Below, piece after piece: positions 24,794 to 51,253 of a stretch of 64,000 nucleotides of DNA. The translations under genes and the position numbers were made by a program. The stretch's first letter is position 1, and every line of letters begins with the position of its first letter. The notes beneath the pieces were generated by a model that saw only the letters and a list, made by a program, of their open reading frames with translations, did not search any database and was not told where the DNA came from. The stretch spans positions 1 to 64,000 of the forward strand of contig CACYPF010000004.1 in NCBI GenBank assembly GCA_902776195.1. The letters run 5' to 3'. Origin of the DNA: an uncultured Prevotellaceae bacterium. Lineage in GTDB: Bacteria; Bacteroidota; Bacteroidia; Bacteroidales; Bacteroidaceae.

Positions 24794-24818
24794 AAGTCTC
24801 AGGTTCTTATTTCTGCTG

Positions 24819-24826
24819 CAAAGATA
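24819..24826 (-). promoter_or_regulatory. -7 box of the HTCS gene
   Basis: Minus strand TATCTTTG lies 25 bases before the start codon. A CAAA that would serve as the -33 box is at 24851-24854, 24 bases away, a little too far, so the promoter may be weak or need help. Confidence 0.5.
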
Positions 24827-24912
24827 GTGCTTTTTTCCGAATTACGACATCAAAACGTATAAGAGTATATGTCACAAATGTTGCAAAAATGTACCATAAC
24901 AACCGGGTGCTA

Positions 24913-24943
24913 TTGCATCTTTCAATTTTTAGAGTTATCTTTG
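24913..24943 (+). promoter_or_regulatory. Promoter of the GH27-GH26-GH2 operon
   Basis: TTG (24913-24915), 20 bases, TATCTTTG (24936-24943), then a 25-base leader to the GH27 start. The AT-rich 24827-24912 stretch between the two divergent promoters is where the HTCS AraC domain would be expected to bind. No clear direct repeat was picked out there by eye. Confidence 0.65.
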
Positions 24944-24968
24944 CAGCAAAATCATTAACACGTCAAAT

Positions 24969-26207
24969 ATGAAGAATCTAAAACAAAGACTCATGATGGG
25001 CGTTATCCTTGCCCTCATGGTAATGCCTGGAAAGGCACAGAAATGGGAACATTTAGCAGACACCCCGCAGATGGGATGGAGTACATGGAACAAATTTCAG
25101 GGAAATATCTCTGAAGACATCATTAAGGGTATAGCGGATGCCATGGTGGAAAGCGGACTGCGTGATGCTGGCTACACCTATATCAATATTGATGACTGCT
25201 GGCACGGCAAGCGTGATGCGGACGGTTTCATACAGGTGGACAGCAAGAAATTCCCTAATGGCATGAAGGCTGTTGCGGACTATGTCCACAGCAAGGGACT
25301 GAAACTGGGTATCTACAGTGATGCCGGGACAGGTACCTGCGCAGGAATGCCCGGTTCTTTAGGACATGAATACCAGGATGCCATCCAATATGCCCGTTGG
25401 GGAGTGGATTATCTGAAATACGATTGGTGTAACACAACCAATGTCAACCCACAGGGTGCCTACCAACTCATCAGTGACGCACTGCGTGCTTCGGGTCGCC
25501 CGATATTCCTCAGTATGTGTGAGTGGGGAAACAGCCGCCCTTGGAAATGGGCAAAGGAGATTGGTCACTCTTGGCGAACGACCCCCGACATCTGGTGCGA
25601 CTTCGACTCTCTGCGTGTCTTTGAGGCAGGGTACACGCAATTTGGTGTGATGCAGTGTATCCAGTTCAACGACTCCCTTCGTCAGTATGCCGGCAAGGGG
25701 CACTGGAACGACCCCGACATGCTGGAGGTTGGCAATGGAATGACTGAGAATGAGGACCGTGCTCACTTCACGATGTGGTGTATGATGGCGAGTCCTCTCA
25801 TCCTGGGAAACGACCTTCGTTCCATGAGTGAGGCAACACGAAACATCATCATGAATAAGGAGATGATAGCTGTTGACCAGGACACATTAGGTATTCAAGG
25901 GTTACACTATTGTGACCATGATGGACTGCAATTCTGGTTCAAGCCTCTTGCGGGAGGAGACTGGGCATTTACGATTCTCAACCCGACAAAACAAGATATC
26001 ACCTATGCGCTCAACTGGCAAGACTTTAACCTGACTGACAAAGAGGTGAGTGGTCTAAGCACTTCTTTTGATACGAAAGTCTATCAGGTATACAATCTGT
26101 GGACACATAAGATGGAAGGAAAGACCAATACCAAAAACAAGACAGAACGTAAACTGACGGTGAAAGCCCGTGACGTTGTCTCATATCGTTTAATCATAAA
26201 ACAATAA
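24969..26207 (+). CDS. Alpha-galactosidase, GH27
   Basis: A 412-residue exported enzyme with a signal peptide (residues 1-23, ending GKA). The (beta/alpha)8 barrel shows TPQMGWSTWN, YTYINIDDCWHG, GVDYLKYDWCN with nucleophile Asp152, HSWRTTPDIW with acid/base Asp207, and GHWNDPDMLEVGN. A C-terminal beta domain follows from about residue 310. GH27 enzymes release terminal alpha-1,6-galactose. With the GH26 mannanase two bases downstream, the expected substrate is galactomannan or galactoglucomannan side chains. Confidence 0.93.
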   Translation: MKNLKQRLMMGVILALMVMPGKAQKWEHLADTPQMGWSTWNKFQGNISEDIIKGIADAMVESGLRDAGYTYINIDDCWHGKRDADGFIQVDSKKFPNGMKAVADYVHSKGLKLGIYSDAGTGTCAGMPGSLGHEYQDAIQYARWGVDYLKYDWCNTTNVNPQGAYQLISDALRASGRPIFLSMCEWGNSRPWKWAKEIGHSWRTTPDIWCDFDSLRVFEAGYTQFGVMQCIQFNDSLRQYAGKGHWNDPDMLEVGNGMTENEDRAHFTMWCMMASPLILGNDLRSMSEATRNIIMNKEMIAVDQDTLGIQGLHYCDHDGLQFWFKPLAGGDWAFTILNPTKQDITYALNWQDFNLTDKEVSGLSTSFDTKVYQVYNLWTHKMEGKTNTKNKTERKLTVKARDVVSYRLIIKQ

Positions 26208-26209
26208 TC

Positions 26210-27775
26210 ATGAAAAGAACAACACTATCCCTTATCTTCCTTTTTTTCGCTACTATCGGCATCCTTGCCCAAACCAGTACGAAGTTAGAGGCAGAAAATG
26301 CTAATTACGTGAATTGCAAACTGATTCAAGATAGCAAGTATTCTGGTGGGAAAGCACTGGAAATAACAGAAGAAAATGCCAAAATCACCTTTACCTACAA
26401 TCAGTCGGAAAAAGGGAAATATATCGTCTATGTGGGCTATGACGGACTTCATGGCGACAAGGTGGTGAACCTTGCCGTGAACGGCAGTAACGGTACTTTC
26501 ACGACCAAGGGGAGAGCAGAGACAGCCGTTGGTACTTTCTTTATGAATAAAGGCAATAACACCATCATTATCACTCCCGGTTGGACATGGTTCCGCATTG
26601 ACTATATCCGCATCGAGAAGGATAATAGTATCTCTTTGCCTTTTAATATATCGCCAGCCCCTGTTGATCCTCAGGCAACAGCCAATGCTAAGAAAGTATA
26701 CTCCTTCCTCTATAACAATTTTGGAAAGAAGACCATTTCTGGTATGATGACTGGTGACATGTCGTCTGCCAATGGGAATGTCACACAGCATGACGACATA
26801 AAGGCTGTCTATGAAGCCTCCGGCAAATACCCAGCCCTCGTTGGTTTCGACTTCATGAATACGACTGGTGCTTACGAGAATGCCGATTGGACTAAATCAT
26901 ATACCAATAATGTCATTGAGCTGGCAAAAGACACCTACAAGCGTGGAGGCGTTCCAACCTTCACATGGCACTGGCGTGACCCCAGCCGCAGCACTGGCGA
27001 GTTCTATTCTGATCAATGTAACATGAAGATTACCAATGCCTTAAAGAATGACGGCACATGGAACACCTCTTCTTCTCTCTATCAGTACATCATCAAGGAC
27101 ATCGATGCCATTGCCGATCATTTCCTGGAATTACAGAATGCTGGTGTCGCCTGTATCTTCCGCCCTCTCCATGAATCAAGTGGCGGTTGGTTCTGGTGGG
27201 GACGAGAGGGAGCGGAACCTTTCAAGAAACTCTACCATCTGCTTTACGATGAGATGGTGAATGTCAAGGGTGTTCATAATGTCATCTGGGTATGGAATGC
27301 GGGAGAGTATGACCAAGACTGGAACCCGGGCGAAGCCTATTATGATGTCGTCTCAGCGGATATCTATAACAAAAGTTTCGACTACTCCAGTAATTATGTC
27401 TTGTTTGACAAACTCAAAGTACTCACTGGAGGCAAGAAGATTCTCGCTTTATCAGAGAATGGTCCCATCCCTGATATCGACAAGGAGTTTGACGAGGAGG
27501 CTGTATGGTCGTGGTGGATGCCTTGGTATCACACATGGAATGGCAAATTCGTCGACCAGACCAGCAAGGAAGAATGGACGAAATGTATGAACGACAGCCG
27601 TGTCGTCACCCTTGAGGACTTATCCGCCGGCTGGGAAGCATACACTGGTATTCAGTCACCCAAAGTCAGCAAGCATACCAATCTTGCCATCTATGACCTT
27701 CAAGGTCACCGCCTCTCTGAAATACCACGCAAAGGGATGTATATCAGAGGGGGTAGAATTCTAATCAATAATTAA
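26210..27775 (+). CDS. Beta-mannanase, GH26, with N-terminal CBM35-like domain
   Basis: A 521-residue secreted enzyme. Signal peptide residues 1-20 (ends LAQ). Residues about 22-140 are a CBM35-like sandwich (LEAENANYVNCK ... WTWFRIDYIRI). The GH26 barrel spans about 160-475 with acid/base Glu322 in FRPLHESSGGWFWWG and nucleophile Glu416 in ALSENGPIPD. The end (LAIYDLQGHRLSEIPRKGMYIRGGR) resembles a Prevotella C-terminal secretion tail, so it may be displayed on the surface. It cleaves internal beta-1,4-mannosidic bonds, and pairs logically with GH27 upstream and GH2 downstream. Confidence 0.93.
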   Translation: MKRTTLSLIFLFFATIGILAQTSTKLEAENANYVNCKLIQDSKYSGGKALEITEENAKITFTYNQSEKGKYIVYVGYDGLHGDKVVNLAVNGSNGTFTTKGRAETAVGTFFMNKGNNTIIITPGWTWFRIDYIRIEKDNSISLPFNISPAPVDPQATANAKKVYSFLYNNFGKKTISGMMTGDMSSANGNVTQHDDIKAVYEASGKYPALVGFDFMNTTGAYENADWTKSYTNNVIELAKDTYKRGGVPTFTWHWRDPSRSTGEFYSDQCNMKITNALKNDGTWNTSSSLYQYIIKDIDAIADHFLELQNAGVACIFRPLHESSGGWFWWGREGAEPFKKLYHLLYDEMVNVKGVHNVIWVWNAGEYDQDWNPGEAYYDVVSADIYNKSFDYSSNYVLFDKLKVLTGGKKILALSENGPIPDIDKEFDEEAVWSWWMPWYHTWNGKFVDQTSKEEWTKCMNDSRVVTLEDLSAGWEAYTGIQSPKVSKHTNLAIYDLQGHRLSEIPRKGMYIRGGRILINN

Positions 27776-27784
27776 ACCAACAAT

Positions 27785-30241
27785 ATGAACCTAAGAAAAC
27801 TGATGACGGTGATAACTGTCTGGATGACAGTACTCACCATGAACGCACAGAATGTGAGAGAGGTCATCCGACTGGACGAGGGGTGGAAGTTCGCTTTCGG
27901 CAACGCCGCTGACCCTGCCAAGGACTTCGGATGCGGAACGGAGTATTTCAACTACCTGACGAAGGCGAACTCGATACATAACGAGGGACCATATTCCCCG
28001 AAGTTCGATGACTCGAAATGGGAGGAGGTACGCATCCCCCACGACTGGGTGACCACCCTGTCGTATGAACAGAAAGCCAGTCATTCTCACGGTTATAAGA
28101 CCGTAGGCTATAAATACCCGGAGACCAGCGTGGGATGGTACAGGAAAATCGTGAAAATTGAAGAATTGAAAAGTGGAAGTACCGAAGACCTTCCCTGCAG
28201 GTATTATCTGCAGTTCGACGGTATCTTCCGCAATGCCCGTGTGTGGTTCAATGGGTTTTATATGGGCACGGAGCCCAGTGGCTATGCCACTCAGGTATAT
28301 GACGTGACGGAATATGTGAACTACGGAGGCGACAACCTCATCTGTGTACGTGCCGACGCTACCCTTGAGGAGGGTTGGTTCTACGAGGGTGCCGGTATCT
28401 ACCGGGATGCATGGCTTGTCAAGACGGGTAAGGTGAGCGTGGCTCCCTTCGGTACTTTCGTCTATGCCGACATGAAAGCACCTTACACGACTGCCACGAT
28501 GGTTGTAGAGACAGAGATCCATAACAGCACCCCCGCCACACAGTCCTGCCAGGTGGAGCAACGCCTGCTGGATGCCGACGGAAAGGAGGTTGGCAGGATG
28601 GCTGCAGCAACCATGCAGTTGAAAGGCAAACAGACCAGCAGTTGCAAACAACAGATGACGGTCAGTCACCCACACCTGTGGAGCACTACGGACCCTTACC
28701 TCTATCAGGTGGAGACCACGGTGAAGGTGGATGGCAAGGTGACGGATGTCTATACCACTACGACAGGTTTCCGTGAGGTGGTCTTCGATGCCGACAAGGG
28801 CTTCCTGCTGAATGGCAAGTCCATCGAGCTGAAAGGTGCCAATATGCACCAGGACCATGCGGGCGTGGGGGCTGCCATCCCCAATGCCCTGCAGGCATGG
28901 CGCATCCAACAATTGAAGCAGTTCGGGTGTAACGCCTACCGTGCCTCACATAACCCCATGACTCCTGCCCTGCTCGACATCTGCGACCGCGAGGGTATCC
29001 TCGTCATCGACGAGAACCGTCTCTCGGGTATCAACACCGAGCACCTGCGCCTCTTGGAGAATATGATCAAGCGTGACCGTAACCATCCTTCCGTCATCCT
29101 GTGGAGCGACGGTAATGAGGAATGGGGAATGGAGAATACCATCCAGGGAACACGCATCGCCGCTGCCATGAGGGAGTATACCAAACTGCTCGACCCCACC
29201 CGCCACTCTACCATCGCCAATGCCGGTGGCGGAGAGATGATCAAGGGACTTGACGTAGTGGGGTTCAACTATATCCTGCAGAATGATGTGGACAACCGCA
29301 AGAAGAACAACCCGACATGGAAGATTGTAGGTACGGAGGAGACGACGGGCTGTGGTACCCGTGGTGTCTATTACGACAATCCGGAATTCCCGGGACGCAT
29401 GGTATCGATGAACCGGAGCGCTGACAAGGACGGCACCTACAACCGTATCGAGCGTGGTTGGAAGTTCTATGCTGACCGTCCATGGGCTGCGGGACTCTTC
29501 TACTGGACCGGTTTCGACTACCGTGGCGAGCCCAACCCCCTGTCATTTCCTGCCCACGACTCAGAGTTCGGCATCCTCGACTACTGCGGTTTCTGGAAAG
29601 ACGAGGCGTGGTATCTGAAGTCATGGTGGACCGACGAGCCCACCCTGCATATCTTCCCCCACTGGAACCTGCAAGGTCATGAGGGTGAGGAAGTGGAGGT
29701 ATGGGCATACAGCAACTGCGACGAGGTAGAGCTGACGGTCAATGGCAAGAAACTGGGTCGTCAGAAGATGCCTAAGAACGGACACTTGAAGTGGAAGGCG
29801 GTCTACCAGCCTGGCAAGGTGGTTGCCGTAGGCTATAAGAACGGCAAGCGCATCCTCACGGAGACGATAGAGACCACCAAACCTGCCGACAGGATCATCG
29901 TGAAGAGCAACCGCCCCAGCATCACTGCCGACGGACGGGATGTCGCCATCGTCACCATCGAGTTGCAGGATGCCAAAGGACGTGTCGTTCCTGATGCCTG
30001 CCAGCCCCTGACCTTCCGTATTGAAGGCAACGGCCGCATCATCGGCGCGGGGAATGGTGACCCCTCCTATCCCGGTGCCGACCACCCGAAAGACAAGGAC
30101 TGCAAGGAGTTCAGCATTCCTGCCTTCAACGGTTACGCACAAGTCATCATCCAGAGTGAGAAGAGTGCCGGCAATATCCTGTTGCAATGCACCTCCACCG
30201 GACTGAAGAGCGGCACCGTCAATATCCGGTCTGCACAATAA
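27785..30241 (+). CDS. GH2 glycoside hydrolase (beta-galactosidase/beta-mannosidase type)
   Basis: An 818-residue exported enzyme. Signal peptide residues 1-21 (ends MNA). The N-terminal jelly-roll has RIPHDWVTTLSYEQ and GWYRKIV; Ig-like domains and the catalytic barrel follow with LKGANMHQDHAGVG, CNAYRASHNPMTP, and ILWSDGNEEWGM containing acid/base Glu445. The nucleophile is probably Glu518 or Glu519 in VGTEETTGCG. A DUF4982-like and an Ig-like domain (ITADGRDVAIVTIELQDAKGRVVPDA) close the protein. Family GH2 is clear; the specificity is not. Context favours an exo-enzyme on manno- or galacto-oligosaccharides. Codons are more GC-rich than in the two upstream genes. Confidence 0.88.
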   Translation: MNLRKLMTVITVWMTVLTMNAQNVREVIRLDEGWKFAFGNAADPAKDFGCGTEYFNYLTKANSIHNEGPYSPKFDDSKWEEVRIPHDWVTTLSYEQKASHSHGYKTVGYKYPETSVGWYRKIVKIEELKSGSTEDLPCRYYLQFDGIFRNARVWFNGFYMGTEPSGYATQVYDVTEYVNYGGDNLICVRADATLEEGWFYEGAGIYRDAWLVKTGKVSVAPFGTFVYADMKAPYTTATMVVETEIHNSTPATQSCQVEQRLLDADGKEVGRMAAATMQLKGKQTSSCKQQMTVSHPHLWSTTDPYLYQVETTVKVDGKVTDVYTTTTGFREVVFDADKGFLLNGKSIELKGANMHQDHAGVGAAIPNALQAWRIQQLKQFGCNAYRASHNPMTPALLDICDREGILVIDENRLSGINTEHLRLLENMIKRDRNHPSVILWSDGNEEWGMENTIQGTRIAAAMREYTKLLDPTRHSTIANAGGGEMIKGLDVVGFNYILQNDVDNRKKNNPTWKIVGTEETTGCGTRGVYYDNPEFPGRMVSMNRSADKDGTYNRIERGWKFYADRPWAAGLFYWTGFDYRGEPNPLSFPAHDSEFGILDYCGFWKDEAWYLKSWWTDEPTLHIFPHWNLQGHEGEEVEVWAYSNCDEVELTVNGKKLGRQKMPKNGHLKWKAVYQPGKVVAVGYKNGKRILTETIETTKPADRIIVKSNRPSITADGRDVAIVTIELQDAKGRVVPDACQPLTFRIEGNGRIIGAGNGDPSYPGADHPKDKDCKEFSIPAFNGYAQVIIQSEKSAGNILLQCTSTGLKSGTVNIRSAQ

Positions 30242-39124: not shown

Positions 39125-39158
39125 CAGCCACGGATGCATGACATTCGTGGCTGTTTTT
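39125..39158 (+). terminator. Terminator of metY-cysK
   Basis: A 12-bp stem with one G.U pair (39125-39136 with 39142-39153), a 5-nt loop and TTTTTAT immediately after. It separates cysK from the kinase operon promoter. Confidence 0.85.
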
Positions 39159-39177: not shown

Positions 39178-39209
39178 TTTGGAATAATGGCTGAAATAAC
39201 CTATCTTTG
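39178..39209 (+). promoter_or_regulatory. Promoter of the four-kinase operon
   Basis: TTTG (39178-39181), 20 bases, TATCTTTG (39202-39209): a perfect consensus, 29 bases before the first kinase start. No other promoter was spotted in the gaps up to 52.65 kb, which are all 15 bases or shorter. Confidence 0.75.
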
Positions 39210-39238: not shown

Positions 39239-41386
39239 ATGAGCCTACAAAATCTACATAACCGATCTTACCGACTACTGACACTTGCCGCTACTGCCCT
39301 AATACCAGTCATGGCACAAGCACAGGAGTTCCATTTTGAAAAAGCATTTGACGCAACCCATCTGCTTACCTATCTCATAGCAGGGATGTTCATCTCTATT
39401 TTCGTCCTTTTGTTTTACAACCGGCTCTACGCATTCAAAGAGCAAGAGGGGGATAATGAGCTAAAGAGCCAGAATGCACGCTTAGGACTTGTCATGCAGG
39501 CTGGCAGGCTCCAGCTGTGGATATACAATACGGACACGCGGCATTACAGGTTCATTACGGAAAATGGAGACTACTCCCGAGAATACAACCCCGTGGAGTT
39601 TGCCCGTTTCTTTCATTATGATGACTTCGAGAATTTGCGTACCGCCATCTTTGACATTTGTGAAGGGAGAAGGCTGACAGCCACCGTGAATCTCCGCAGC
39701 AACGAGGATGATGGGAAAGCGCTCAATTATTATGAGACGTACATTTCGATTGCCAAGAAAGATGCTCGCGGGAATATCCATCAGATATTAGGAGTGCAAC
39801 ATGACATTACTGCCGAGCAGGTGAAAAAGAACAACGCCAATGAGATTCTCATGCGCTACCATACCGTCTTCAACTCCTCTTTGATTGACGTGTTCTATTA
39901 TGACAAAGAGGGTGTGTTGAAAGAGATTAACGAAACAGCATGTAACTCTTTAAAAATACATGACAAAAAGGAGTTGTTACAGCATAGAGTAGCCTATGAT
40001 GACAATCCCCTGTTCAACCACATCGACTACCGCCAGACAAGACATACTGTGACCTCTGGCTTCGTGGACTTCGCCAAATACAAAGGCACGCGGTTCTTAG
40101 ATGAGGCGTATAAGGACAAGAAACTCTATTACGAGGCATCCATCAACACCATTCATGACAAGCATGGGAATCTGGATGGCATTTACATCATCGGGCGCGA
40201 CATCACCGAAATGGTAGAATCGTTCCATCAGCAACAACAAGGTGCCATCCAATTAAAGAAAGCGACACAGCATATCCAGAAATATATTAACAACATCAAC
40301 TACGCACTTCGCATCAGCAATGTCCGACTGGTTAATTATTACCCGGAAAGCTACACGCTGGATGTGTCAAACATTGTCGGCAAACCACAGATACGCCTTT
40401 CGCAACTGCGGTGTATCCGTCTTGCCGCACCGCAAGACCGAAGGAATGTATCCAGCGTACTGAACCGCATGGACCACCTGAGCCGCTACCCTATCACCCA
40501 GACGATAGCGACAGAGTTTCACGACAAGCAAGGACGACAGTCGTACCTGATGTTCAACCTCATCCCCATCATCAATCGACAAGGGCAGGTTGAACGTTAT
40601 TTCGGCATGTGCCTGGAGCAAACAGACATCGTAGAGACCGAGCGCCGGCTTGCCATTGAGACCAAGAAAGCACAAGAGGCAGAGATGTTGAAAGAATCGT
40701 TCCTCACGAACATGAGTTATGAGATAAGGACTCCGCTGACAGCTGTCCTTGGATTCGCAGAACTCTTCGAGCAAGAGCATGACGAGAGTGATGAGCCTGT
40801 ATTTGTCGAAGAGATTAAAAAGAGCACCAATTCACTGCTCCAGCTGATCAATGACATTCTGTTCCTTTCACGTCTGGATGCCGATATGGTGGAGTTCAAA
40901 CACGACGAATTTGACTTTGCAGAATATTTTGACGCCTACTGCCAGATGGGTTGGAGCAGTGTCCGTCCGAATGTGAAGACATACATAGAGAATCCTTATG
41001 AGCACCTGGTATTTGAAGGTGATATTGAGCAATTAGGAAAGGCTATCAACATGCTTTGCCAGAATGCGGCTTTCTACACGAAGGAAGGAAGTGTCCGAGC
41101 CAAGTATGAGTATCGAAGAGGAGAGTTAGTTATCAGCATCGAAGACACAGGTGTCGGTATTGATGCAGACAATCTGCCACACGCCATGGAGCGTTTCAAT
41201 CGCAACAAGGATGAGGAGCTCTGTGGGACTGGTCTGAACCTGCCTATCATTGAAGCTATAATCCAGAAGATGGGAGGATCCATTGAACTACAGTCGGAGA
41301 TTAACAAAGGTACGACAGTATGGATTTTCCTCCCCTCCCAAGCAAAGACAGTGGTGAAGAAGAGTGAAATAATCATTAACGAATAG
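39239..41386 (+). CDS. Membrane PAS-sensor histidine kinase homologue 1 (type A), phosphoacceptor His replaced by Tyr
   Basis: 715 residues. Signal-like segment 1-29, short periplasmic stretch, transmembrane helix about 41-61, then three PAS-like modules (about 75-200, 205-340, 345-480), a HisKA region and a HATPase domain. The H-box reads NMSYEIRTPLTAVLGF: Tyr494 (codon TAT, 40718-40720) stands where the phosphorylated His belongs. The N-box (LCQNAAFYT), G1 (DTGVGI) and G2 (GTGLNLP) look intact. Its cytoplasmic part closely parallels the kinase at 43439 (FAELFE..., LINDILFLSRLDA, EYFG/DYFG-LC). It lacks that kinase's periplasmic solute-binding domain. It may act as a regulatory or heterodimer partner. 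Confidence 0.88.
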   Translation: MSLQNLHNRSYRLLTLAATALIPVMAQAQEFHFEKAFDATHLLTYLIAGMFISIFVLLFYNRLYAFKEQEGDNELKSQNARLGLVMQAGRLQLWIYNTDTRHYRFITENGDYSREYNPVEFARFFHYDDFENLRTAIFDICEGRRLTATVNLRSNEDDGKALNYYETYISIAKKDARGNIHQILGVQHDITAEQVKKNNANEILMRYHTVFNSSLIDVFYYDKEGVLKEINETACNSLKIHDKKELLQHRVAYDDNPLFNHIDYRQTRHTVTSGFVDFAKYKGTRFLDEAYKDKKLYYEASINTIHDKHGNLDGIYIIGRDITEMVESFHQQQQGAIQLKKATQHIQKYINNINYALRISNVRLVNYYPESYTLDVSNIVGKPQIRLSQLRCIRLAAPQDRRNVSSVLNRMDHLSRYPITQTIATEFHDKQGRQSYLMFNLIPIINRQGQVERYFGMCLEQTDIVETERRLAIETKKAQEAEMLKESFLTNMSYEIRTPLTAVLGFAELFEQEHDESDEPVFVEEIKKSTNSLLQLINDILFLSRLDADMVEFKHDEFDFAEYFDAYCQMGWSSVRPNVKTYIENPYEHLVFEGDIEQLGKAINMLCQNAAFYTKEGSVRAKYEYRRGELVISIEDTGVGIDADNLPHAMERFNRNKDEELCGTGLNLPIIEAIIQKMGGSIELQSEINKGTTVWIFLPSQAKTVVKKSEIIINE

Positions 41387-41393
41387 AACGAGC

Positions 41394-43436
41394 ATGAACA
41401 CTATATATATGACTACTCTGCTGCAAGCGGAACCCTCTCTGTTGATTCCAGTGACGATATCGATACTGACAGGAGTTTTACTGGCTGGAGTTATCTTAAT
41501 CAACAGAATTATCTTGCGCAGGATACGCCGCATGTCACAGATGACCAGCGACAAGCATGCCATCATGCAACAAGCACTGAAAATCAGTTCGAGCAATGTG
41601 GTATACTATGACATTTCCAAACGCTATGTCACACAACTTTATGGTCACATGATGCCTGATGAAGGATTAACAGCAGAAGAGTGGCAGCAACACGTACATC
41701 CTGACGATGTCGAAAAGGCTCTTCACTATATCAGAGAAATTATCAATGGCGAGGAGAAATCACAGGAATTCCATTACCGCTGGAACTTTGAATATAATGG
41801 CGGAGAACCTCGATGGGGATATATGCACAACGTCAGTGTGGGTGAGTACTTGCCAGGCATCAAGCGCCCGGTAGGAGTCATTAGTACGTTAGTGGACGAG
41901 ACGACCATCCTGGAACAGCAGGAGAAAGAGATGGAACTCACAGAGAAATACAAATTGATTTTCGAACAGTCTATCATCGGTCTGTCGTTCTATAGTCCTG
42001 ACGGATGGTTGTTGGATGCCAATAAAGTGATGCGGGACATCTGCCATTTCGACAGCGAGGACAGCGATGGCTTCTTCTCAAACACCAACCTTTTCGACAC
42101 GAATCCTTTCCGGGACTGTATCGACAAATATAATGTAGAGGAATTCTGGGCATGCTCACGCAGTGACATCCCAGAGCGAGACATACACGTCTATCTGGAA
42201 ATCCGACTCCACCCCATCCGTAATGAAGAAGGCAAACTAATTTATATCGCCTTGGCGGTACGTGATGTCACAGAAGAGCGTGAGATGTATCTCCAATCGA
42301 AGCTCAATGACATCCAGATACAAAAAGCAAACGAAGAGATTCAGCGCTACGAGATGGAGCTTCAGTATATGATGGAAGGTTGTGACATGCGTGCCTGGCG
42401 AATGACTTATGAAGAGGGGACCGTCCAGTTCCTGAAAGGACTTAGCGGTATTGAGCGGGAGATTCCTTTCGAGGAATATGTCAAACACTTCATTGACGAC
42501 GAGGAAGAACTGAGAGAGAAGTTCAGTCATCCTGAGAAATACTTCACCCAGCCAATGACCGTCCTTCGCAAGATGCGCCCTATCTTCCACGAGACCGAGG
42601 ATGTGCAGTGGAACCAGATCAACAGTGTGCCTATCTATGACGAGAAAGGCGACCTGGTCGGCGGCTTCGGACTGATCCGTAACATGACGAAGTTCATCCA
42701 AGCACAGGAGAGACTTAAGATGGAGACACAGCGTGCCAATGAGTCGGGACGACTGAAGAGTGTCTTCCTTGCCAATATGACCCATGAGATCCGTACCCCA
42801 CTGAATGCCATCGTAGGTTTTTCTGATCTGCTGCAGATGATGACAACTACGGAAGAGAAGCGTGAACTCATTCATGTCATCCATAACAACTGTGATATGT
42901 TACTCCGACTCATCAATGACATCATGGCGATCTCCGCAATGGATGCCAATGGTCTCACCATGAATCCAATAGACACAGACTTTGCCAAAGCTTTCAACGA
43001 GATGTGTCAGACATTGGCACAAAGGGTGGAGAATCCGAACGTACAATTTATCAAAGAGAATCCTTATCAGACACTGCAGACACATCTGGATGTTGGACGA
43101 ATGACGCAGGTGATGACGAACTTCGTTACCAATGCCGTCAAATATACTCAGAACGGACATATCAAAGTAGGATACCGCCTGCAAGACAGTGGCATATATA
43201 TGTATTGCGAAGATACGGGCACAGGTATTCCCAAGGAGCAATGCGCTAAAGTGTTCGAACGATTCGTCAAGTTGAATGACTATGTTCAGGGAACAGGATT
43301 GGGACTATCTATTTGTAAGGCGATTGCTGAGCGTTGCAACGGCAAGATCGGAGTAGACAGTGAAGTAGGACAAGGCTCCACTTTCTGGATATGGATACCT
43401 TGTGTCATTGATCAAATAGAAGCTATCGGTGAGTAA
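41394..43436 (+). CDS. Membrane PAS-sensor histidine kinase 2 (type B)
   Basis: 680 residues. One transmembrane helix about 16-41 with almost no periplasmic part; then PAS-like modules (about 55-180, 185-300, 315-430), HisKA with [20 protein letters not shown] (His464), and HATPase with FVTNAVKYT (N-box), [10 protein letters not shown] and [11 protein letters not shown]. All kinase motifs are present. It closely parallels the kinase at 46263 ([51 protein letters not shown]). It starts seven bases after kinase 1 and is followed by kinase 3 after two bases. There is no receiver or DNA-binding domain, so its target is elsewhere. Confidence 0.92.
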
Positions 43437-43438
43437 AG

Positions 43439-46261
43439 ATGATTAACAGAACCTATGCCATTATACTAACAGTCGTGATGCTGTGGTGTACGAATATCAT
43501 TGTACAGGCAGCCTCACAAGATGAGAACATCAGAGTGTACACGAAGGAGAATCCCTTGGTATATGAGGATGTGTTCGACTTGTGGCCCTACTCTTTCCTC
43601 AATGAGAACGGTGAGCCCGACGGCTATAATGTAGAGCTGGTCCATATGATGCTCAAGGAACTGGATATTCCCTATGTCATCAGGATGAAGCCCAAACAGG
43701 AATGTTTCCAGGACCTGAGAGACGGGAAGTCTGACTTGATGTTCGGGCTGGCGGCGGGATTCAATGACGGGTTCGGACGATACAGTAGCAATATCATCAC
43801 CCTGTTCACGCAAAGTGTGGCAACACCCATCAACAAGCCCATTAAGATCAAGACTTTCCGTGACTTAGGAGAATACCAGGTCACCGTATGGGAAGGCAGT
43901 ATCTGTCACCACCTGATGAAGGACTACGGATGGGAAGACAAGGCAATGCCGACGAAGTACATGAGGGACGCTATCGAGAAACTGAGCCTGACAGAAGACG
44001 GACAGATTGTGTGGAACACACTCTCCCTGCAATGGTTGGTGAAGAAATACAAGATTGACAACATACAGATCACACCCGTTGACATGCCACACGGGGAATA
44101 CAAGTTCATGTCGAACAACCCCCATCTGCTCGCCCGTCTGGACAGTATCTATACCGTACTCAATTCTGCCAATAAGTTCACTGAGATACAGAACAAATGG
44201 TTCTATCCTGAGCGCAGCGAGAAGAAGATAGCCCCATGGGTATGGTATGTCACTTCCGTCGCCGCCATCATCATCCTGCTTTTTCTGGTATATGCCATCA
44301 ACTACCGGACGAAGGAGCACAGGATTACCAAGCTCAACAATAAGAACAACCAGCGTCTGGCACTCATTCTGGAAGCAAGCAATGTACGTATGTGGACTTA
44401 TGACATCAGCACCAAACTCTTTACGTGGCGTAACGAGAAAGGACAGGCGTCCTTTACCTATACGGTCGAAGAGTTTGCCCAGCGCTACCATGCCGGTGAC
44501 TTTGAGCGCTTGCGCGAAGCCGTCCATAAACTGACGAACAGCAAGGGACTCACCGCAGAGGAAGAGGAAATCAATTTATACCTCAAGGCGAAGGACGTAG
44601 AAGACGGTGACAAGCAGGAGCATGAGTTCATGATCTCCTTATCTGTCCTGCAACGTGACAAGGAAGGACGACCACTCGTCATCCTCGGTACTAAGAAAGA
44701 CATCACCCAAGAACAGATTCAGAAAAGACTGGATGAGGAACGCACCATGCGGTATTGGGCAATTTTCAACACCCCGCTGGTAGGTATCATGTGTTTCAAC
44801 AGGGAGGGTATCCTGACCAACATCAACGAAAAGGCTTGCCAGACCTATGAGTGTGACCGTCAGGAACTGATAGACGAAAGAATATCCTATCACGACATGT
44901 TCGATATCGAGTTGCCCATGGAGGAATTAGACGGTTTCTATTTCACACAGGTTATCGACATCGACAAGATAGCAGAGAAAGAGAGGAAACTGAAAGCCTG
45001 CAAGCGGAAAGGAAGACTCCTGCATGAGGTACATCTGATGACTGTTTATGAGGAAGACGGTCAACTGATGGGTATGTTTGCCGTCGGAAGAGATATGACA
45101 GACCGTATGAATGCCACCAACCAGCAACAAGAGCAGGCTAACCGCACCAGAAAGATTGTCAAGGACCTGACAGAGCATATCAACAATATGAACTATGTCC
45201 TCCAGTCGGGTGGTATCCACATGGTCACCTACTCTCCCAGGTCTCATACGCTGATTATCTATAGTGGCATCAATAAGGTACAATATGAGATTACACAGAC
45301 ACGCTGCATGACATTGGTGGACGACAAATACAGGAGAAAAGCGATGCATCTCCTGAACAACATGGACAACCGGATATCCAAGCACATTGACACGGATATC
45401 CTGACCAGTATACATGTCTCGGGCAAGAAACTGATGCATCTGCACTTCAATCTCGTACCTACCTTTGACACCAACGGTAAAGTGGAAGACTACTTCGGAC
45501 TATGTCGCGACGTGACAGAGCAGATGTATAATGAACAGCAGCTGGAACAGAAGACCCTCAAGGCACAAGAGGTGGAGAATACCAAGAACAGTTTCCTGAA
45601 GAATATGAGCCATGAGATCCGCACGCCACTGAATGCCGTCGTCGGTTTCGCAGAGCTTTTTGAGACAGAACACACGCCTGAGGACGAGGAGATTTTCGTT
45701 CAGGAGATCCTGGACAACTCCGACCACCTGCTGCGACTGATCAACGACATCCTTTTCCTCTCACGACTGGATGCACATATGATTAAGATACAACATCAAC
45801 CATGCGACTTCGCCATGATTTTTGATGGCAACTGCCAACAGGGGTGGGAGCGTTACAAGCGTGAAGGAGTAAACTATATCGTGGATAGTCCATACCAGCA
45901 ACTGGTTGTGGACATCGACGCTACCAATCTCGGACATGTCATCGAGCAAGTTGCGGCAAATGCAGCGCAATATACCCTTAGTGGAACAGTACGAGCACGT
46001 TATGACTATATCGGCCGCCGACTGATGATCTCCATTGAGGATACAGGACAAGGAATCAGTGAGGACATTCAGAAACGTATCTTTGAACGGTTTGCCGCAG
46101 GTTCCAACAAAGGAAGCGGACTGGGGCTCCCTATCTGCAAGGAACTGGTAGAGCAGATGGGAGGCACTCTGGAGATCAACTCCGAGGAAGGTCTGGGCAC
46201 CACTGTATGGATCATGATACCATGTCAGGCAACTGTTATAAAACGAAAGAAGTTTATCTAA
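43439..46261 (+). CDS. Sensor histidine kinase 3 (type A) with periplasmic solute-binding domain
   Basis: 940 residues. Signal peptide 1-25; an SBP_bac_3-like periplasmic domain about 30-262 (NENGEPDGYNVELVHMMLKEL, DLRDGKSDLMFGLAAG, FRDLGEYQVTVWEGS); transmembrane helix about 266-286; three PAS-like modules; HisKA with [16 protein letters not shown] (His725); HATPase with AANAAQYT, EDTGQGISE and GSGLGLPICK. SBP_bac_3 domains usually bind amino acids or other small polar ligands; the ligand here is unknown. The cytoplasmic half is the paralogue of kinase 1, but it retains the phosphoacceptor His. Kinase 4 starts one base after its stop. Confidence 0.92.
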   Translation: MINRTYAIILTVVMLWCTNIIVQAASQDENIRVYTKENPLVYEDVFDLWPYSFLNENGEPDGYNVELVHMMLKELDIPYVIRMKPKQECFQDLRDGKSDLMFGLAAGFNDGFGRYSSNIITLFTQSVATPINKPIKIKTFRDLGEYQVTVWEGSICHHLMKDYGWEDKAMPTKYMRDAIEKLSLTEDGQIVWNTLSLQWLVKKYKIDNIQITPVDMPHGEYKFMSNNPHLLARLDSIYTVLNSANKFTEIQNKWFYPERSEKKIAPWVWYVTSVAAIIILLFLVYAINYRTKEHRITKLNNKNNQRLALILEASNVRMWTYDISTKLFTWRNEKGQASFTYTVEEFAQRYHAGDFERLREAVHKLTNSKGLTAEEEEINLYLKAKDVEDGDKQEHEFMISLSVLQRDKEGRPLVILGTKKDITQEQIQKRLDEERTMRYWAIFNTPLVGIMCFNREGILTNINEKACQTYECDRQELIDERISYHDMFDIELPMEELDGFYFTQVIDIDKIAEKERKLKACKRKGRLLHEVHLMTVYEEDGQLMGMFAVGRDMTDRMNATNQQQEQANRTRKIVKDLTEHINNMNYVLQSGGIHMVTYSPRSHTLIIYSGINKVQYEITQTRCMTLVDDKYRRKAMHLLNNMDNRISKHIDTDILTSIHVSGKKLMHLHFNLVPTFDTNGKVEDYFGLCRDVTEQMYNEQQLEQKTLKAQEVENTKNSFLKNMSHEIRTPLNAVVGFAELFETEHTPEDEEIFVQEILDNSDHLLRLINDILFLSRLDAHMIKIQHQPCDFAMIFDGNCQQGWERYKREGVNYIVDSPYQQLVVDIDATNLGHVIEQVAANAAQYTLSGTVRARYDYIGRRLMISIEDTGQGISEDIQKRIFERFAAGSNKGSGLGLPICKELVEQMGGTLEINSEEGLGTTVWIMIPCQATVIKRKKFI

Positions 46262-46262
46262 T

Positions 46263-49052
46263 ATGAGACACATACGCTATACAAGATACATCATCATGGC
46301 GATGACCCTCATCCTCTGTCTGCCAGCATGGGCACAGCCAAGGGTATACGATGAGCGGCACCCTGTCATCATTGCCGGTGACTGGGATAAGCCTCCTTAT
46401 GAATACCAGAATGACAAGGGAGAGCCTGCCGGTTCAAACATAGACGTGATGAGAGCCATCATGGAACAACTGGGACTCCCGTGTAAATTCGTGCTCAAAG
46501 AATGGGGTAATGCCATCAAGGCGTTTGAACGGGGAGAGGCTGATCTGATTTTTGCCAATACCAGCAGATACCGTAAGGCGCCTTACCACAGCACCCGCAA
46601 CGTCATCAACTACAACCGTATCCGTGCCTTGATGATTGGTGACAGTGTTCCCTCACTCTCCATACAACAGTTAGTGAAGGAAGGAGTCGTCCTCAAGCCC
46701 TCCGATTTCACGCTGGCTTATTTCCTTGCCAAGGACTCGTCCTACATCAACCACATCGACTTCCAGTCACCTAAAGTGGCACTTCTGGGACTGCACGACA
46801 AAGACTATAAGTATTTTGTATGGGGAGAGGAACCCTTGAAATGGAAAATCAGGGAGTTCAATATGGAGAACGAGGGCTTCATCCTCAATGATGTGAATAT
46901 TCCTGTCAGTCAGGTTCATATCATCGGACGCGACGAAGACCTCATCAATGACATCGATGATGTCTACTCCCGCCTCAAACAGAGCGGTGAGGTGGAAGAC
47001 ATCAAACAAAGATGGCTGCACCCCGAGAAAGTGAGCGGTCTGCCAGACATTTCCCTAACGGCATATATCATTCTTGGAATCATCTTATTGACACTGTTCT
47101 GCTATCTGCTCAACCGACTGGCACAGTCACATGTCAAGAGAGCGTCACGCCATTCCAGAGAACTGAATGAGATGATGCTGAAGGCTCTTCACATGGGACG
47201 TTTCTATGTGATGCAATACGACATCGCCCATCAGCATTTCACAAACCATTACGGCTCTTTCCTCCCAAAGAACGGTATGTCCTTAAAGGATTTCGTCGAT
47301 CATATCCATCCTACGGAACAGCAAGAATTCATGAAGAAGATGGACCAGATGATAAAGGGACTGGAACAAAAGACCGCTATTGAGAAACGATGGAACATCG
47401 GAACACCTGAGCATCCCCAATGGCTCAACTTCAAAGGACACTCCATGGTGGAGTATGATGACTACGGACATCCTGTCTACATTGTCAACACCATCCATGA
47501 TATCACCAATGATGTGGAGGGTGAGAGGACGGCACATGAGCTGATCAGGAAATATGACCGGCTGAAGAACATCCCCGGTCTCTCCATGTCGTTCTATGAC
47601 CAAAAAGGGGGATTGATTGCCGTTAATGAGTCCATGAAAGAACTCTGCGAGTTCGACAAACCAGAAAACGAACGGTTCTTCCGCTTGTCCAATATGTTCG
47701 AGATACCAGTCTTCCGTGACATCTTCCCTCATGACCACAAAGAGGCAAGGTCTGCGTGTCACCGGATGGAGAAGCCTAACAAAGACGGGAAAGATACCTA
47801 TATAGAATATGATGTCCGTCCGTTGCTGGATGACCATGGGGAAACTTTCAACTATATCATCTCTGCCGTTGACGTGACAGAGGCACGCGACCGTGACCTG
47901 GACATGCACAAGATGAACAGGGAGATCCAGGAAGCCGTCAAGCAGACCAACCATCTGGAGTTACAGTTGCAGTATATCCTTGAGAACACGAATATGTATG
48001 TGTTCCAGATTGATTTCCAGCAACGCCTGATATCCTATACCCGACAGTTAAGCACCCCAGAATATGTCAAGACCTTTGAGGAGTATTACGACTGCGTTTT
48101 CGAAGCAGAGAAGGAGCAAGCAGTCAAAGGGTTAGAGGACAAAGAGGTGTGGAGGAAACAGATGTCCTTCGACCGTCATTTCAAGAAACCGCTGGTAGGT
48201 GAAGGTGATGCTGACCACTGGTATAATATCTCCAGCATACCCATCTTGGATGAACAAGGACAAGTCAAGGGCGCGTTTGGTATTCTGCGCGACATCACCC
48301 AGCAACTGGAAGCCCAGCGTAAACTCAAAGAAGAGACACTGCGTGCTGAGAGCAGTGGACAACAGAAGAGCATGTTCCTTGCCTCCATGACACATGAGTT
48401 ACGTACTCCCCTCAACTCCATCGTCGGTTTCTCTGACCTGCTCCGCACCATTGATACCCCCGAGGAACGGAAGGAATTCATCCATATCATCCGCACCCAC
48501 TGTGATATCCTGCTACGACTCATCAACGACATCCTGGAGGCTTCCAATATCTCGGACACGCTGATGCAGATCATCCCGAAGGAGGTAGACTTCGCACAAG
48601 CGTTTGACATGATGTGTCAGACGCTGGAACAACGTGTGGACAATCCCAACGTGGCATTCCAGAAGGACAATCCATATCAGAAACTCATCACGGTCTTGGA
48701 TATGGGGCGTATCCAGCAGATTGTCACCAATTTCGTCACCAACGCTGTGAAATACACTACAGAAGGACATATCCGTGTAGGATACCGGGAGGAAACAAGA
48801 GAGAAAGACGGAGAGAAGAGGACTGGTATCTACGTGTATTGCGAGGACACCGGAAGTGGTATCCCGGAGGAGAAAAAGGATGCTGTCTTCGAGCGTTTCG
48901 TCAAACTCAATGAGTTCGTTCAGGGCACGGGTCTCGGACTTTCTATCTGCAAGAATATTGTAGAACGCTGTGAGGGACAGATTGGTGTGAACAGCGAGAT
49001 AGGTAATGGTTCCACCTTCTGGTTCTGGATTCCAGTAAGTATTTATAACTAA
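46263..49052 (+). CDS. Sensor histidine kinase 4 (type B) with periplasmic solute-binding domain
   Basis: 929 residues. Signal peptide 1-24; an SBP_bac_3-like domain about 32-262 (DWDKPPYEYQNDKGEPAGSN, FERGEADLIFANTSRY); transmembrane helix about 266-285; PAS-like modules to about 690; HisKA with [20 protein letters not shown] (His711); HATPase with [19 protein letters not shown] and [11 protein letters not shown]. The cytoplasmic part parallels kinase 2. All kinase motifs are intact and, like its neighbours, it has no output domain. The GH36 gene begins two bases downstream, so kinase and alpha-galactosidase are made from the same message. Confidence 0.92.
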   Translation: MRHIRYTRYIIMAMTLILCLPAWAQPRVYDERHPVIIAGDWDKPPYEYQNDKGEPAGSNIDVMRAIMEQLGLPCKFVLKEWGNAIKAFERGEADLIFANTSRYRKAPYHSTRNVINYNRIRALMIGDSVPSLSIQQLVKEGVVLKPSDFTLAYFLAKDSSYINHIDFQSPKVALLGLHDKDYKYFVWGEEPLKWKIREFNMENEGFILNDVNIPVSQVHIIGRDEDLINDIDDVYSRLKQSGEVEDIKQRWLHPEKVSGLPDISLTAYIILGIILLTLFCYLLNRLAQSHVKRASRHSRELNEMMLKALHMGRFYVMQYDIAHQHFTNHYGSFLPKNGMSLKDFVDHIHPTEQQEFMKKMDQMIKGLEQKTAIEKRWNIGTPEHPQWLNFKGHSMVEYDDYGHPVYIVNTIHDITNDVEGERTAHELIRKYDRLKNIPGLSMSFYDQKGGLIAVNESMKELCEFDKPENERFFRLSNMFEIPVFRDIFPHDHKEARSACHRMEKPNKDGKDTYIEYDVRPLLDDHGETFNYIISAVDVTEARDRDLDMHKMNREIQEAVKQTNHLELQLQYILENTNMYVFQIDFQQRLISYTRQLSTPEYVKTFEEYYDCVFEAEKEQAVKGLEDKEVWRKQMSFDRHFKKPLVGEGDADHWYNISSIPILDEQGQVKGAFGILRDITQQLEAQRKLKEETLRAESSGQQKSMFLASMTHELRTPLNSIVGFSDLLRTIDTPEERKEFIHIIRTHCDILLRLINDILEASNISDTLMQIIPKEVDFAQAFDMMCQTLEQRVDNPNVAFQKDNPYQKLITVLDMGRIQQIVTNFVTNAVKYTTEGHIRVGYREETREKDGEKRTGIYVYCEDTGSGIPEEKKDAVFERFVKLNEFVQGTGLGLSICKNIVERCEGQIGVNSEIGNGSTFWFWIPVSIYN

Positions 49053-49054
49053 TA

Positions 49055-51253
49055 ATGTATATGATGAGAAAAACAATCTTTTCAACGCTATTGCTTTGTC
49101 TGTCATCCACTATGGCATGGGCAGAGCAAGTCATCATCGAGACACAGCATGTCTCCATGGTACTTGACGTCGTTAAGGGGGCACAACCTCAGTATGTCTA
49201 TTTCGGTGCCAAACTTAGTGCCAACGAACTTCAGCACCTGCAGAAACCCGAGATGTTCGGACGTATGGATGCTTATCCTGCCTATGGGTTGAACACCCCT
49301 GCCGAGGCAGCTCTTGCCATGCGCCACTCGGACGGCAACCTCTCCACGGCATTGGTGGTGGAAGGGGTACAACGGAATGGTAACATCACGACGATACAGT
49401 TGAAGGATCCTGTCTACCCTATCCTCGTCAACCTGAAATACAGAACCTATCCGAACGAGGATATGATAGAGGCTTGGACGGAGATTGTCAATAACGAGAA
49501 GCAAACCGTCACCCTGACGACTTTCGCCTCGGCAATGCTACCCATCCGTCGCGGCAACGTATGGCTCAGTCATTTCTATGGCTCTTGGGCGAATGAGACA
49601 CAACTGGTGGAGGAGCCGCTGACTCCAGGGCAGAAAGTGATTGTCAATAAGGATGGTACCCGCAACTCACACACCGACCATGCCGAGGTGATGTTCTCGC
49701 TCGACGGAAAAGGACAGGAGAACAGCGGACAGGTGATTGGTGCCGCATTATGCTATTCGGGTAACTACCGGCTGAAGGTGAATACGGACGATACAGAGTA
49801 CCACTATTTCTTCGCTGGTATCAATGAGGATAACTCTGAGTATCACCTGAAGAAGGGGGAGACGTTCGTCACTCCTAAGTTGGCGCTGACATTCTCCCAA
49901 CAGGGACTCTCGGGTGTTTCCCGTAACTTCCATAAGTGGGGACGTAAGTACATGCTGATGCATGGTGACAAAGAGCGTAAGATATTGCTGAACTCTTGGG
50001 AGGGTGTCTATTTCGACATCAACCAGAAGGGCATGGACCAGATGATGGCAGACATCGCCTCCATGGGTGGCGAGCTCTTCGTGATGGACGATGGCTGGTT
50101 TGGTGACAAATATCCCCGTAAGACGGACAACTCCTCACTGGGTGACTGGGTCGTCGACAAGAACAAGTTGCCTGAGGGTATCGAGGGACTTCTCCGTGAT
50201 GCCAAGAAACACGGTATCAAGTTCGGAATATGGATAGAGCCCGAGATGTCGAACACAACCAGTGAACTCTATGAGCAGCATCCTGACTGGATCGTCAAGG
50301 CTCCCAAGCGTGATGCCGTATTAGGACGTGGCGGTACGCAGGTGGTCCTCGACCTTGCCAATCCTAAGGTGCAGGACTTCGTCTTCGGTGTCGTAGACAA
50401 CCTGATGACGAAATATCCGGAGATAGACTATATCAAATGGGATGCTAACATGCCTATCCTGAACCATGGCTCACAATACCTTACGATGAACGACCAGAGC
50501 CACATGTATATCGAATACCATCGTGGTTTCGAGAAGGTTTGCCAGCGCATCCGTGCCAAGTTCCCTGATGTCACTATTCAGGCATGTGCCTCTGGCGGTG
50601 GACGTGCCAACTGGGGCGTACTCCCCTACTTCGACGAGTTCTGGGTCAGCGACAATACCGATGCCCTCCAGCGTATCTATATGCAATGGGGCACCAGTTA
50701 TTTCTTCCCTGCCATCGCCATGGCAAGTCATATCTCCGCCACGCCCAACCACACCGTGTTCCGCACGACAGCATTGAAATACCGTATCGACGTGGCAATG
50801 AGCGGACGACTGGGAATGGAGATACAACCCAAGAACATGACGGATGCCGAGAAGGAGCTCTGTCGCAAGGCGATTGCTGAGTACAAGCAGATACGTCCTA
50901 TCGTGCAGTTTGGTAATATCTACCGTCTGGTGTCTCCTTACGACAAGAAGGGACTCGCCTCTATGATGTATGTCACCGACCAGCAGGACAAGGCGGTGTT
51001 CTATTGGTGGAAAACGGAGTCGTTCCAGAACGAGCACCTGCCCCGTGTCAGAATGGCAGGACTCGATGCCAACCGTATGTATAAGGTGAAGGAGCTGAAC
51101 CGCATCGACCTCAAGCCGATGAGTGTGGAGGGTAAGTCGTTCAGCGGTGCCTACCTGATGAACCATGGTCTGGACATGCCATACCGCAATGAGCCAGAAT
51201 GGTCGAAGAAGACCGACTGGTCAAGTCGTGTCCTTCTGCTGGAGGCAGAATAA
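49055..51253 (+). CDS. Alpha-galactosidase, GH36
   Basis: A 732-residue exported enzyme. Signal peptide about 1-24 (ends AWAEQ). An N-terminal beta-supersandwich is followed by the catalytic barrel with MDDGWFGDKYP, FGIWIEPEMSN, and IDYIKWDANM holding nucleophile Asp463. CASGGGRANWGVLPYFDEFWVSDNTD carries the acid/base Asp, probably in SDNTD at 533-536. A C-terminal beta domain ends it. It removes alpha-galactose from melibiose, raffinose-type sugars or galactomannan fragments. Its position inside a sensor-kinase operon suggests the kinases respond to, or prepare the cell for, galactosides. Starts at 49055 (MYM) and 49061 (MRK) are both possible. Confidence 0.92.
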   Translation: MYMMRKTIFSTLLLCLSSTMAWAEQVIIETQHVSMVLDVVKGAQPQYVYFGAKLSANELQHLQKPEMFGRMDAYPAYGLNTPAEAALAMRHSDGNLSTALVVEGVQRNGNITTIQLKDPVYPILVNLKYRTYPNEDMIEAWTEIVNNEKQTVTLTTFASAMLPIRRGNVWLSHFYGSWANETQLVEEPLTPGQKVIVNKDGTRNSHTDHAEVMFSLDGKGQENSGQVIGAALCYSGNYRLKVNTDDTEYHYFFAGINEDNSEYHLKKGETFVTPKLALTFSQQGLSGVSRNFHKWGRKYMLMHGDKERKILLNSWEGVYFDINQKGMDQMMADIASMGGELFVMDDGWFGDKYPRKTDNSSLGDWVVDKNKLPEGIEGLLRDAKKHGIKFGIWIEPEMSNTTSELYEQHPDWIVKAPKRDAVLGRGGTQVVLDLANPKVQDFVFGVVDNLMTKYPEIDYIKWDANMPILNHGSQYLTMNDQSHMYIEYHRGFEKVCQRIRAKFPDVTIQACASGGGRANWGVLPYFDEFWVSDNTDALQRIYMQWGTSYFFPAIAMASHISATPNHTVFRTTALKYRIDVAMSGRLGMEIQPKNMTDAEKELCRKAIAEYKQIRPIVQFGNIYRLVSPYDKKGLASMMYVTDQQDKAVFYWWKTESFQNEHLPRVRMAGLDANRMYKVKELNRIDLKPMSVEGKSFSGAYLMNHGLDMPYRNEPEWSKKTDWSSRVLLLEAE

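Follow-up and report, generated by a model that had tools for sequence, protein, structure and literature searches.

An operon that encodes four sensor histidine kinases in a row raises the question of whether its products are four equivalent kinases or the members of a receptor whose halves do different work. Such an operon lies in a 64,000-nucleotide stretch of DNA, referred to here as the window, from contig 4 of a draft genome (2.97 Mb in total) of an uncultured Prevotellaceae bacterium. An earlier note on this DNA had recognised two kinase types in the order A-B-A-B (K1 to K4) and had proposed a two-kinase sensory unit, duplicated in tandem, whose A and B proteins work together. We found that this note had missed the main point, which is that the members of an A-B pair are, judged by the residues at their catalytic sites, not equal kinases.

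The kinase operon and its four products

The operon and its landmarks are as follows.
39125..39153, plus strand: terminator-like hairpin after cysK, a 12-pair stem then a T run; upstream boundary of the operon
39178..39209, plus strand: match to a Bacteroidetes-type promoter pattern, TTTG-N20-TATCTTTG, preceding K1
39239..41386, plus strand: K1, small A, 715 aa; predicted membrane helix, three PAS-like domains, DHp and CA
40718..40720, plus strand: Tyr494 (TAT) of K1 at the phosphoacceptor His position, in the motif NMSYEIRTPL
41394..43436, plus strand: K2, small B, 680 aa; catalytic residues canonical
42783..42785, plus strand: His464 (CAT) of K2, the phosphoacceptor by alignment
43439..46261, plus strand: K3, large A, 940 aa; SBP_bac_3, PAS, HisKA and HATPase_c
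43583..44203, plus strand: periplasmic binding-protein (Venus flytrap) domain of K3 (Pfam SBP_bac_3, 2.8e-9)
45611..45613, plus strand: His725 (CAT) of K3, a residue that few A proteins have
46263..49052, plus strand: K4, large B, 929 aa; SBP_bac_3, PAS, HisKA and HATPase_c; catalytic residues canonical
46368..47021, plus strand: periplasmic binding-protein domain of K4 (Pfam SBP_bac_3, 3.7e-19; best phmmer match 3h7m, 2.2e-14)
48393..48395, plus strand: His711 (CAT) of K4, the phosphoacceptor by alignment
49055..51253, plus strand: GH36 alpha-galactosidase, beginning 2 bases past K4

The four complete open reading frames are separated by gaps of 7, 2 and 1 bases, in agreement with the tight coupling (one to seven bases) described before. 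The hairpin behind cysK was the sole site of such strength among the sites listed; the scan of the window returned 8 hairpin sites against a shuffle mean of 10.6, so there is no excess. The promoter match follows the pattern TTTG-N19-21-TANNTTTG, which we take to be the Bacteroidetes promoter consensus and which has 10 exact matches in the whole window against 0.44 expected in shuffles. The GH36 gene, which is not part of the A-B unit, is probably co-transcribed with K1-K4; among the loci whose neighbours were listed, it directly follows the last B in the window and in a sister genome (L048) only. As the earlier note had stated, no response regulator was found in or next to the operon, a Pfam domain search having detected no receiver domain there; the nearest receivers found belong to a hybrid sensor at 20942-24793 and to a regulator at contig position 66233, beyond the end of the window. 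This hybrid two-component sensor (Reg_prop, kinase, receiver and HTH_18 domains) is encoded on the minus strand beside plus-strand GH27, GH26 and GH2 genes, and the region 20942-30241 is presumably a galactomannan-use locus. At 14770-20067, the window also encodes a 1765-aa protein with a Spi inhibitor, a peptidase C10 and a type I dockerin domain.

The HisKA and HATPase_c domains exceeded the Pfam cut-off in each of the four proteins, and annotation would name all four genes sensor histidine kinases, which is probably wrong in function for K1. The phosphoacceptor His was found in K2, K3 and K4 but not in K1, where Tyr494 takes its place, and the K1 counterpart in L048 likewise carries Tyr at this position. 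In the ATP site of K1 the N-box Asn is retained and Asn replaces the third Gly of the G2 box; the catalytic residues of K3 are canonical. K1 is thus probably the sole pseudokinase in the window, and K3, with its intact His, may be a competent kinase. By Pfam, a periplasmic SBP_bac_3 domain is present in K3 and K4 and was not detected in K1 and K2, and neither a C-terminal receiver nor an Hpt relay domain was detected in any of the four. Among the best 25 of the 64, 82, 80 and 76 NCBIfam families for K1 to K4, respectively, no named kinase equivalog scored over its curated cut-off. The AlphaFold2 model of K1 (pLDDT 80.3, pTM 0.38), whose arrangement of domains is uncertain, shows an extended N-terminal region of membrane helix, three PAS-like domains, DHp helices at residues 462-547 and a CA domain at 556-707, and it resembles many solved kinases, with DivL (4q20) at rank 19 by fold. 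The binding domain of K3 was modelled with a pLDDT of 89.6 and matched best a histidine kinase sensor domain in the PDB (3h7m), followed by amino-acid-binding proteins; this modelled fold of the amino-acid-binding type is only a lead to the ligand.

A-B pairs in relatives and the phosphoacceptor histidine

BLASTP comparison bore out the A-B-A-B order: K1 and K3 are 37.8% identical over 678 aa and K2 and K4 40.6% over 648 aa, against 23-28% for the cross pairs (K1-K2 25.9%, K1-K4 24.7-26.4%, K2-K3 27.1-27.5%, K3-K4 23.2-23.7%), and every shared motif on which the two types had been defined is present in the K1-K4 translations. Relatives were collected in two samples. For the genus sample, 120 genomes were searched with the PAS region of K3, an A protein with His, and A was found in 52 of them. 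The named-genome scan, with patterns that exclude the H-box, used the best 80 of 254 loci ranked by likeness to Tyr-bearing A; the record titles of these best 80 read Prevotella, Prevotellaceae, Bacteroidales, Xylanibacter ruminicola and uncultured bacterium, many being from ruminant samples. The combined set holds 245 A and 249 B genes, duplicate contigs from the two samples still included.

B follows within 1000 bases downstream of A in 237 of the 245 cases, with a median gap of 9 bases and 229 of them within 60 bases, so A and B are linked in relatives as they are in the window. The eight A genes with no called B were sorted by our own inspection into four at a distance of 902-1364 bases from the end of their contig, two whose B is fused to the next A and two with over-long ORF starts; barring such ORF-calling and fusion cases, no A without B was seen among the 245 where the sequence sufficed. 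Twelve B genes have no called A upstream, and these are mostly pieces or fusions. One genome with A-B pairs at other sites also encodes a full-length, diverged B relative of 915 aa (L118:6344-9091) that no A precedes. The order small A - small B - large A - large B recurs in 64 of 136 non-redundant loci, other arrangements being one large pair (39), one small pair (7) and two large pairs (6). Across a wider family sample, A was found in 12 of 301 genomes and in 3 of 30 genera; a second genus has it in 8 of 45 genomes.

The residue at the phosphoacceptor position was read from an alignment of non-redundant cores, 494 proteins having given 481 cores, of which 419 were kept after cores under 420 residues and copies more than 95% identical had been dropped. 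His is present in all 207 B cores and in 22 of the 212 A cores; the other A cores carry Tyr (154 of the 190 losses), Phe (20), Gln (10), Ser (2) or, once each, Glu, Lys, Gly and Asn. The genus sample alone, although found with the PAS region of the His-bearing K3, gave the same A/B split, and in the second genus every readable A (6 of 6) has Gln at the H-box position, where every readable B (7 of 7) has His. As a control, we read 18 of the remaining 19 HisKA proteins in the window's own genome; His is present in every one of the 18. HisKA domains without His number 722 of 76,471 (0.9%) in the available text of one source (PMC12632262), and that of another gives a background of about 1% (PMC5361649). 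The Tyr codons (TAT, TAC) and the His codon (CAT) are one transition apart.

The ATP site separates the two A classes. Small (K1-type) A lack His in 69 of 78 cores, keep the N-box Asn in 14 and have the third G2-box Gly in only 2 (Asp in 61), and large (K3-type) A lack His in 121 of 134 cores, with the N-box Asn kept in 120 and the third Gly in 121. The A family therefore includes full kinases, proteins with His lost and the ATP site kept, proteins with both lost, and apparent His regains. These intermediate states make it testable whether the catalytic domain acts in trans on the partner, and why such a pair should retain a pseudokinase half. Pseudo-histidine kinases are known as scattered single cases, such as DivL; the A family supplies hundreds of natural cases, each encoded beside an active sister kinase.

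History of the pair and a proposed division of labour within it

In a tree of 182 cores, built by a quick method with the His column omitted, A and B lie on opposite sides of one branch, so that the A/B split takes one change; the four size classes need 8. A grouping of K1 with K2 and of K3 with K4 is ruled out by this single branch. K1 falls in the small-A clade and K3 in a separate large-A clade, which differs from that of the large A in many other tetrads; both clades are deep, and each is also known from lone pairs. With both kinds also existing as lone pairs, the window tetrad did not have to arise by local tandem copying; its origin may lie in the joining of two old pairs. The tandem duplication proposed earlier thus stands as far as the two families and the widespread tetrad order are concerned but not as a recent local event, and the unit is not simply duplicated, as K1-K2 differ from K3-K4 in being without the binding-protein domain. 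By this tree, the A-B duplication is old and the duplication of the pair predates most of the genus. Every one of the deepest branches of A is of the large class, so a loss of the binding domain by the small class is most likely. The His state requires at least 9 changes by parsimony, which in our reading would be a single basal loss in A followed by about 8 regains, including one by K3 with its sister; regain through conversion from the adjacent B is possible.

Between the window and L048, dN/dS was 0.124 for K1, 0.081 for K2, 0.065 for K3 and 0.076 for K4, and the low value for K1 indicates that the pseudokinase is maintained under purifying selection. In the same comparison dS climbs along the operon (K1 0.13, K2 0.41, K3 1.35, K4 1.17), a gradient suggesting that the K1-K2 part was recently exchanged between lineages.

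Co-variation was analysed by mirror-tree on 61 loci with one member of each class, as partial distance correlation with the other two classes regressed out. Over these 61 tetrads, partners gave a partial r of 0.73 (small A-small B) and 0.71 (large A-large B), with 0 of 1000 permutations in each case. The equally adjacent non-partners small B and large A (the K2-K3 type) gave 0.17 (2 of 1000 permutations), small A and large B (the K1-K4 type) gave 0.20 (3 of 1000), and the remaining class combinations gave 0.07 and 0.00. Gene order, pairing, loss of His in A with its retention in B, selection on both and pair-specific co-variation are thus observed. The proposal that A and B work together is supported by the pairing and by the co-variation of A with its own B, but the two cannot be taken as equivalent members, most A being without the phosphoacceptor His. 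Residue covariation between the DHp helices of A and B had an effective depth of 7-22, and mispaired controls scored equal or higher. In five distinct ORFs (L151, L156, L172/L082, L179 and L168/L080), a small B core is fused with that of the large A behind it; as these fusions join mirror-tree non-partners (the K2-K3 types), they indicate at most that two pairs can sit together.

Because A mostly lacks the phosphate-carrying residue while B looks functional, a pair in these Prevotella-type gut bacteria probably acts in signalling as a single receptor made of two proteins. The reading that we prefer, with moderate confidence, is a heteromeric A-B receptor with a division of labour, in which B would be the phosphate carrier and A a DivL-like pseudokinase or half-kinase. 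A single ancestral gene for a binding-protein, PAS and histidine kinase protein would have been duplicated in tandem to give A and B; A would then have lost the phosphoacceptor His, mostly to Tyr, with B retaining all catalytic residues. The pair would later have been duplicated, the K1-K2 type losing its periplasmic binding domains and its A additionally losing most ATP-site residues. We infer physical A-B contact, trans-phosphorylation, receivers and a ligand: A and B would heteromerise via their DHp helices, with phosphate carried on the His of B and A as the sensing and gating half. K3-type A, which keeps its ATP site, could use its catalytic domain to phosphorylate the His of B in trans; for K1-type A, solely allosteric control or docking would be left. 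B would hand the phosphate to unlinked receivers.

Against a heteromer stand the weak non-partner correlations, the K2-K3 fusions, the His in 22 of 212 A including K3, and the L118 B with no A. A and B could instead be separate homodimeric receptors that stay together only through joint transfer and duplication, A being a stand-alone allosteric sensor or a response-regulator-binding protein that makes no contact with B. Joint transfer of pairs would likewise yield pair-level co-variation, the strong variation of dS along the operon (K1 0.13 and K3 1.35 against L048) implies that segments recombine, and DivL itself is described as a homodimer-forming pseudokinase in the available text of PMC4211667. 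Yet the K2-K3 types lie as close together as partners and co-vary little, and A without B was not seen where the sequence sufficed, ORF-calling and fusion cases aside, so that we hold separate homodimers to be rather unlikely.

The other two alternatives concern A itself. Were A a live kinase with phosphorylated Tyr as an alternative acceptor, Tyr would be expected as the commonest replacement, which it is (154 of 190), and phosphorylation of the Tyr in DivL was reportedly once proposed, going by the title of a 1999 paper. This is very improbable given the Phe (20), the Gln (10) and the six other non-acceptors found in A, the Gln of the second genus and the ATP site mostly gone in K1-type A, to which may be added that DivL is without autokinase activity according to the available text (PMC4211667). 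The loss of catalytic residues, heavier in K1-type A, would also be seen if A were a decaying, pseudogene-like leftover of the duplication, but 245 A genes with long open frames, dN/dS of 0.065-0.124 and the repeated keeping of A beside B across the genus and in the second genus speak against decay, which was ruled out by dN/dS and to which we give next to no credence.

Unlinked candidate partners and comparison with known systems

Two proteins encoded elsewhere in the window's own genome are candidate partners: a 116-aa single-domain receiver (C3:64922-65269) and a 417-aa soluble hybrid kinase (C1:108617-109867). Receiver presence was scored as single-domain frames at 58% identity or more, a threshold set by inspection. 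The receiver occurs in 48 of the 120 genus genomes (45 of 52 with A, 3 of 68 without; Fisher p 7.7e-22) and the hybrid kinase in 50 (47 of 52 and 3 of 68; 7.1e-24), the five A-bearing genomes without the hybrid kinase being each 50-80% complete. In a PorX tree of 81 genomes, with PorX named by NCBIfam, all 41 A-bearing rows lie within one clade of 47, so most of the association across the 120 genomes is shared ancestry. Inside the clade, A, receiver and hybrid kinase are jointly absent from G041 (61% complete), G058 (80%) and G059 (99%), A alone is absent from G100, G103 and G119 (55-82% complete), and G034, G066 and G116 have A and the hybrid kinase but no receiver. Within the clade, Fisher tests gave p 0.0012 (hybrid kinase) and 0.021 (receiver), and an independent-pairs sign test gave a median p of 0.125 for both. 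No ortholog of either was found in the 8 A-bearing genomes of the second genus.

Phosphate may flow to this receiver and hybrid kinase as one network with A-B, which would not exclude the heteromer; we regard such a flow as possible but tentative. The skewed presence of both proteins in A-bearing genomes, the joint losses with their within-clade p values, and an AraC gene that stands beside many tetrads and does not track A (within-clade p 1.0) argue for it. These are offset by the clade that covers most of the association, the sign test, the incompleteness of two of the three joint-loss genomes (G041 and G058), the three genomes with A and the hybrid kinase but no receiver, and the second genus, where 0 of 8 A-bearing genomes have an ortholog of either. 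The link to the two proteins is therefore a lead, not a result. A bolder and unlikely version would be a convergent DivL-DivK-CckA-like circuit in Prevotella, in which a Tyr pseudokinase A and an active B in one membrane receptor would read or feed the unlinked receiver and soluble hybrid kinase, all of these having been acquired jointly by the ancestor of one clade and later lost as a set.

The AraC gene (cupin and HTH_18) lies directly downstream of the last B in 42 loci (L049, L052, L054, L057 and 38 others). As a dedicated output, this regulator was rejected, since it occurs in 23 genus genomes without A and has a within-clade p of 1.0; in the window's own genome it was not found at E <= 1e-70.

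Among known systems, A is most readily compared with DivL of Caulobacter, which works with CckA and DivK. In the available parts of the sources, DivL has Tyr for the phosphoacceptor His with the remaining kinase fold kept, contains PAS domains, and acts on a second, active kinase with the single-domain receiver DivK involved (PMC5361649; PMC4211667; PMC12189002). The same feature, Tyr in an otherwise kept H-box, is seen in NMSYEIRTPL of K1 and in 154 of 212 A cores. Unlike DivL, A and B are sister paralogs that one operon encodes as fixed pairs, and a periplasmic binding domain is often present. DivL is alphaproteobacterial, its homologs there share the Tyr, and it binds an ATP analog weakly, as far as the available text goes (PMC4211667), whereas K3-type A keep the ATP site; CckA, moreover, is a hybrid kinase. 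DivL (4q20) was not the nearest solved relative, ranking 10th of 37 with the A profile and 19th with the K1 model fold. Orthology of A to alphaproteobacterial DivL looks unlikely, and we do not assign A to the DivL family.

In RetS-GacS of Pseudomonas, two histidine kinases heterodimerise and one modulates the other, which resembles the A-B contact that we infer and that the mirror-tree supports indirectly; RetS differs from A in siphoning phosphate from the GacS DHp site, according to the part of the source available (PMC12189002), and A is mostly without His. K3 and K4 share with Venus-flytrap kinases of the BvgS and EvgS type the succession of periplasmic SBP_bac_3, membrane helix, PAS and histidine kinase, with 3h7m as the best solved match, but differ from BvgS and EvgS in having one binding domain each, with none in K1 and K2, and no C-terminal receiver or Hpt; the EvgS NCBIfam model stayed far below its cut-off. 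A ChrS variant of Corynebacterium glutamicum is a histidine kinase acting as a pseudokinase, and the available portion of that source indicates no paired, conserved pseudokinase family (PMC9491836). A search of the open-licence PMC literature turned up nothing published on pseudo-histidine kinases of Prevotella or on pairs of this kind.

Several further genes were noted around the A-B pairs. Some 2.4 kb downstream, 24 loci have a gene for a rhamnulokinase-like FGGY kinase, with RhaA in 14 and RhaT in 9. A SpoIIE-phosphatase gene, its identity resting on Pfam for the L062 member (L062:6492-8405), adjoins the pair in 7 loci (others being, for example, L051, L053, L065, L066 and L070) and is on the opposite strand in 6. 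Just upstream of the A-B pair, an extra histidine kinase of about 470-500 aa is encoded in L111, L112, L113, L114 and L115.
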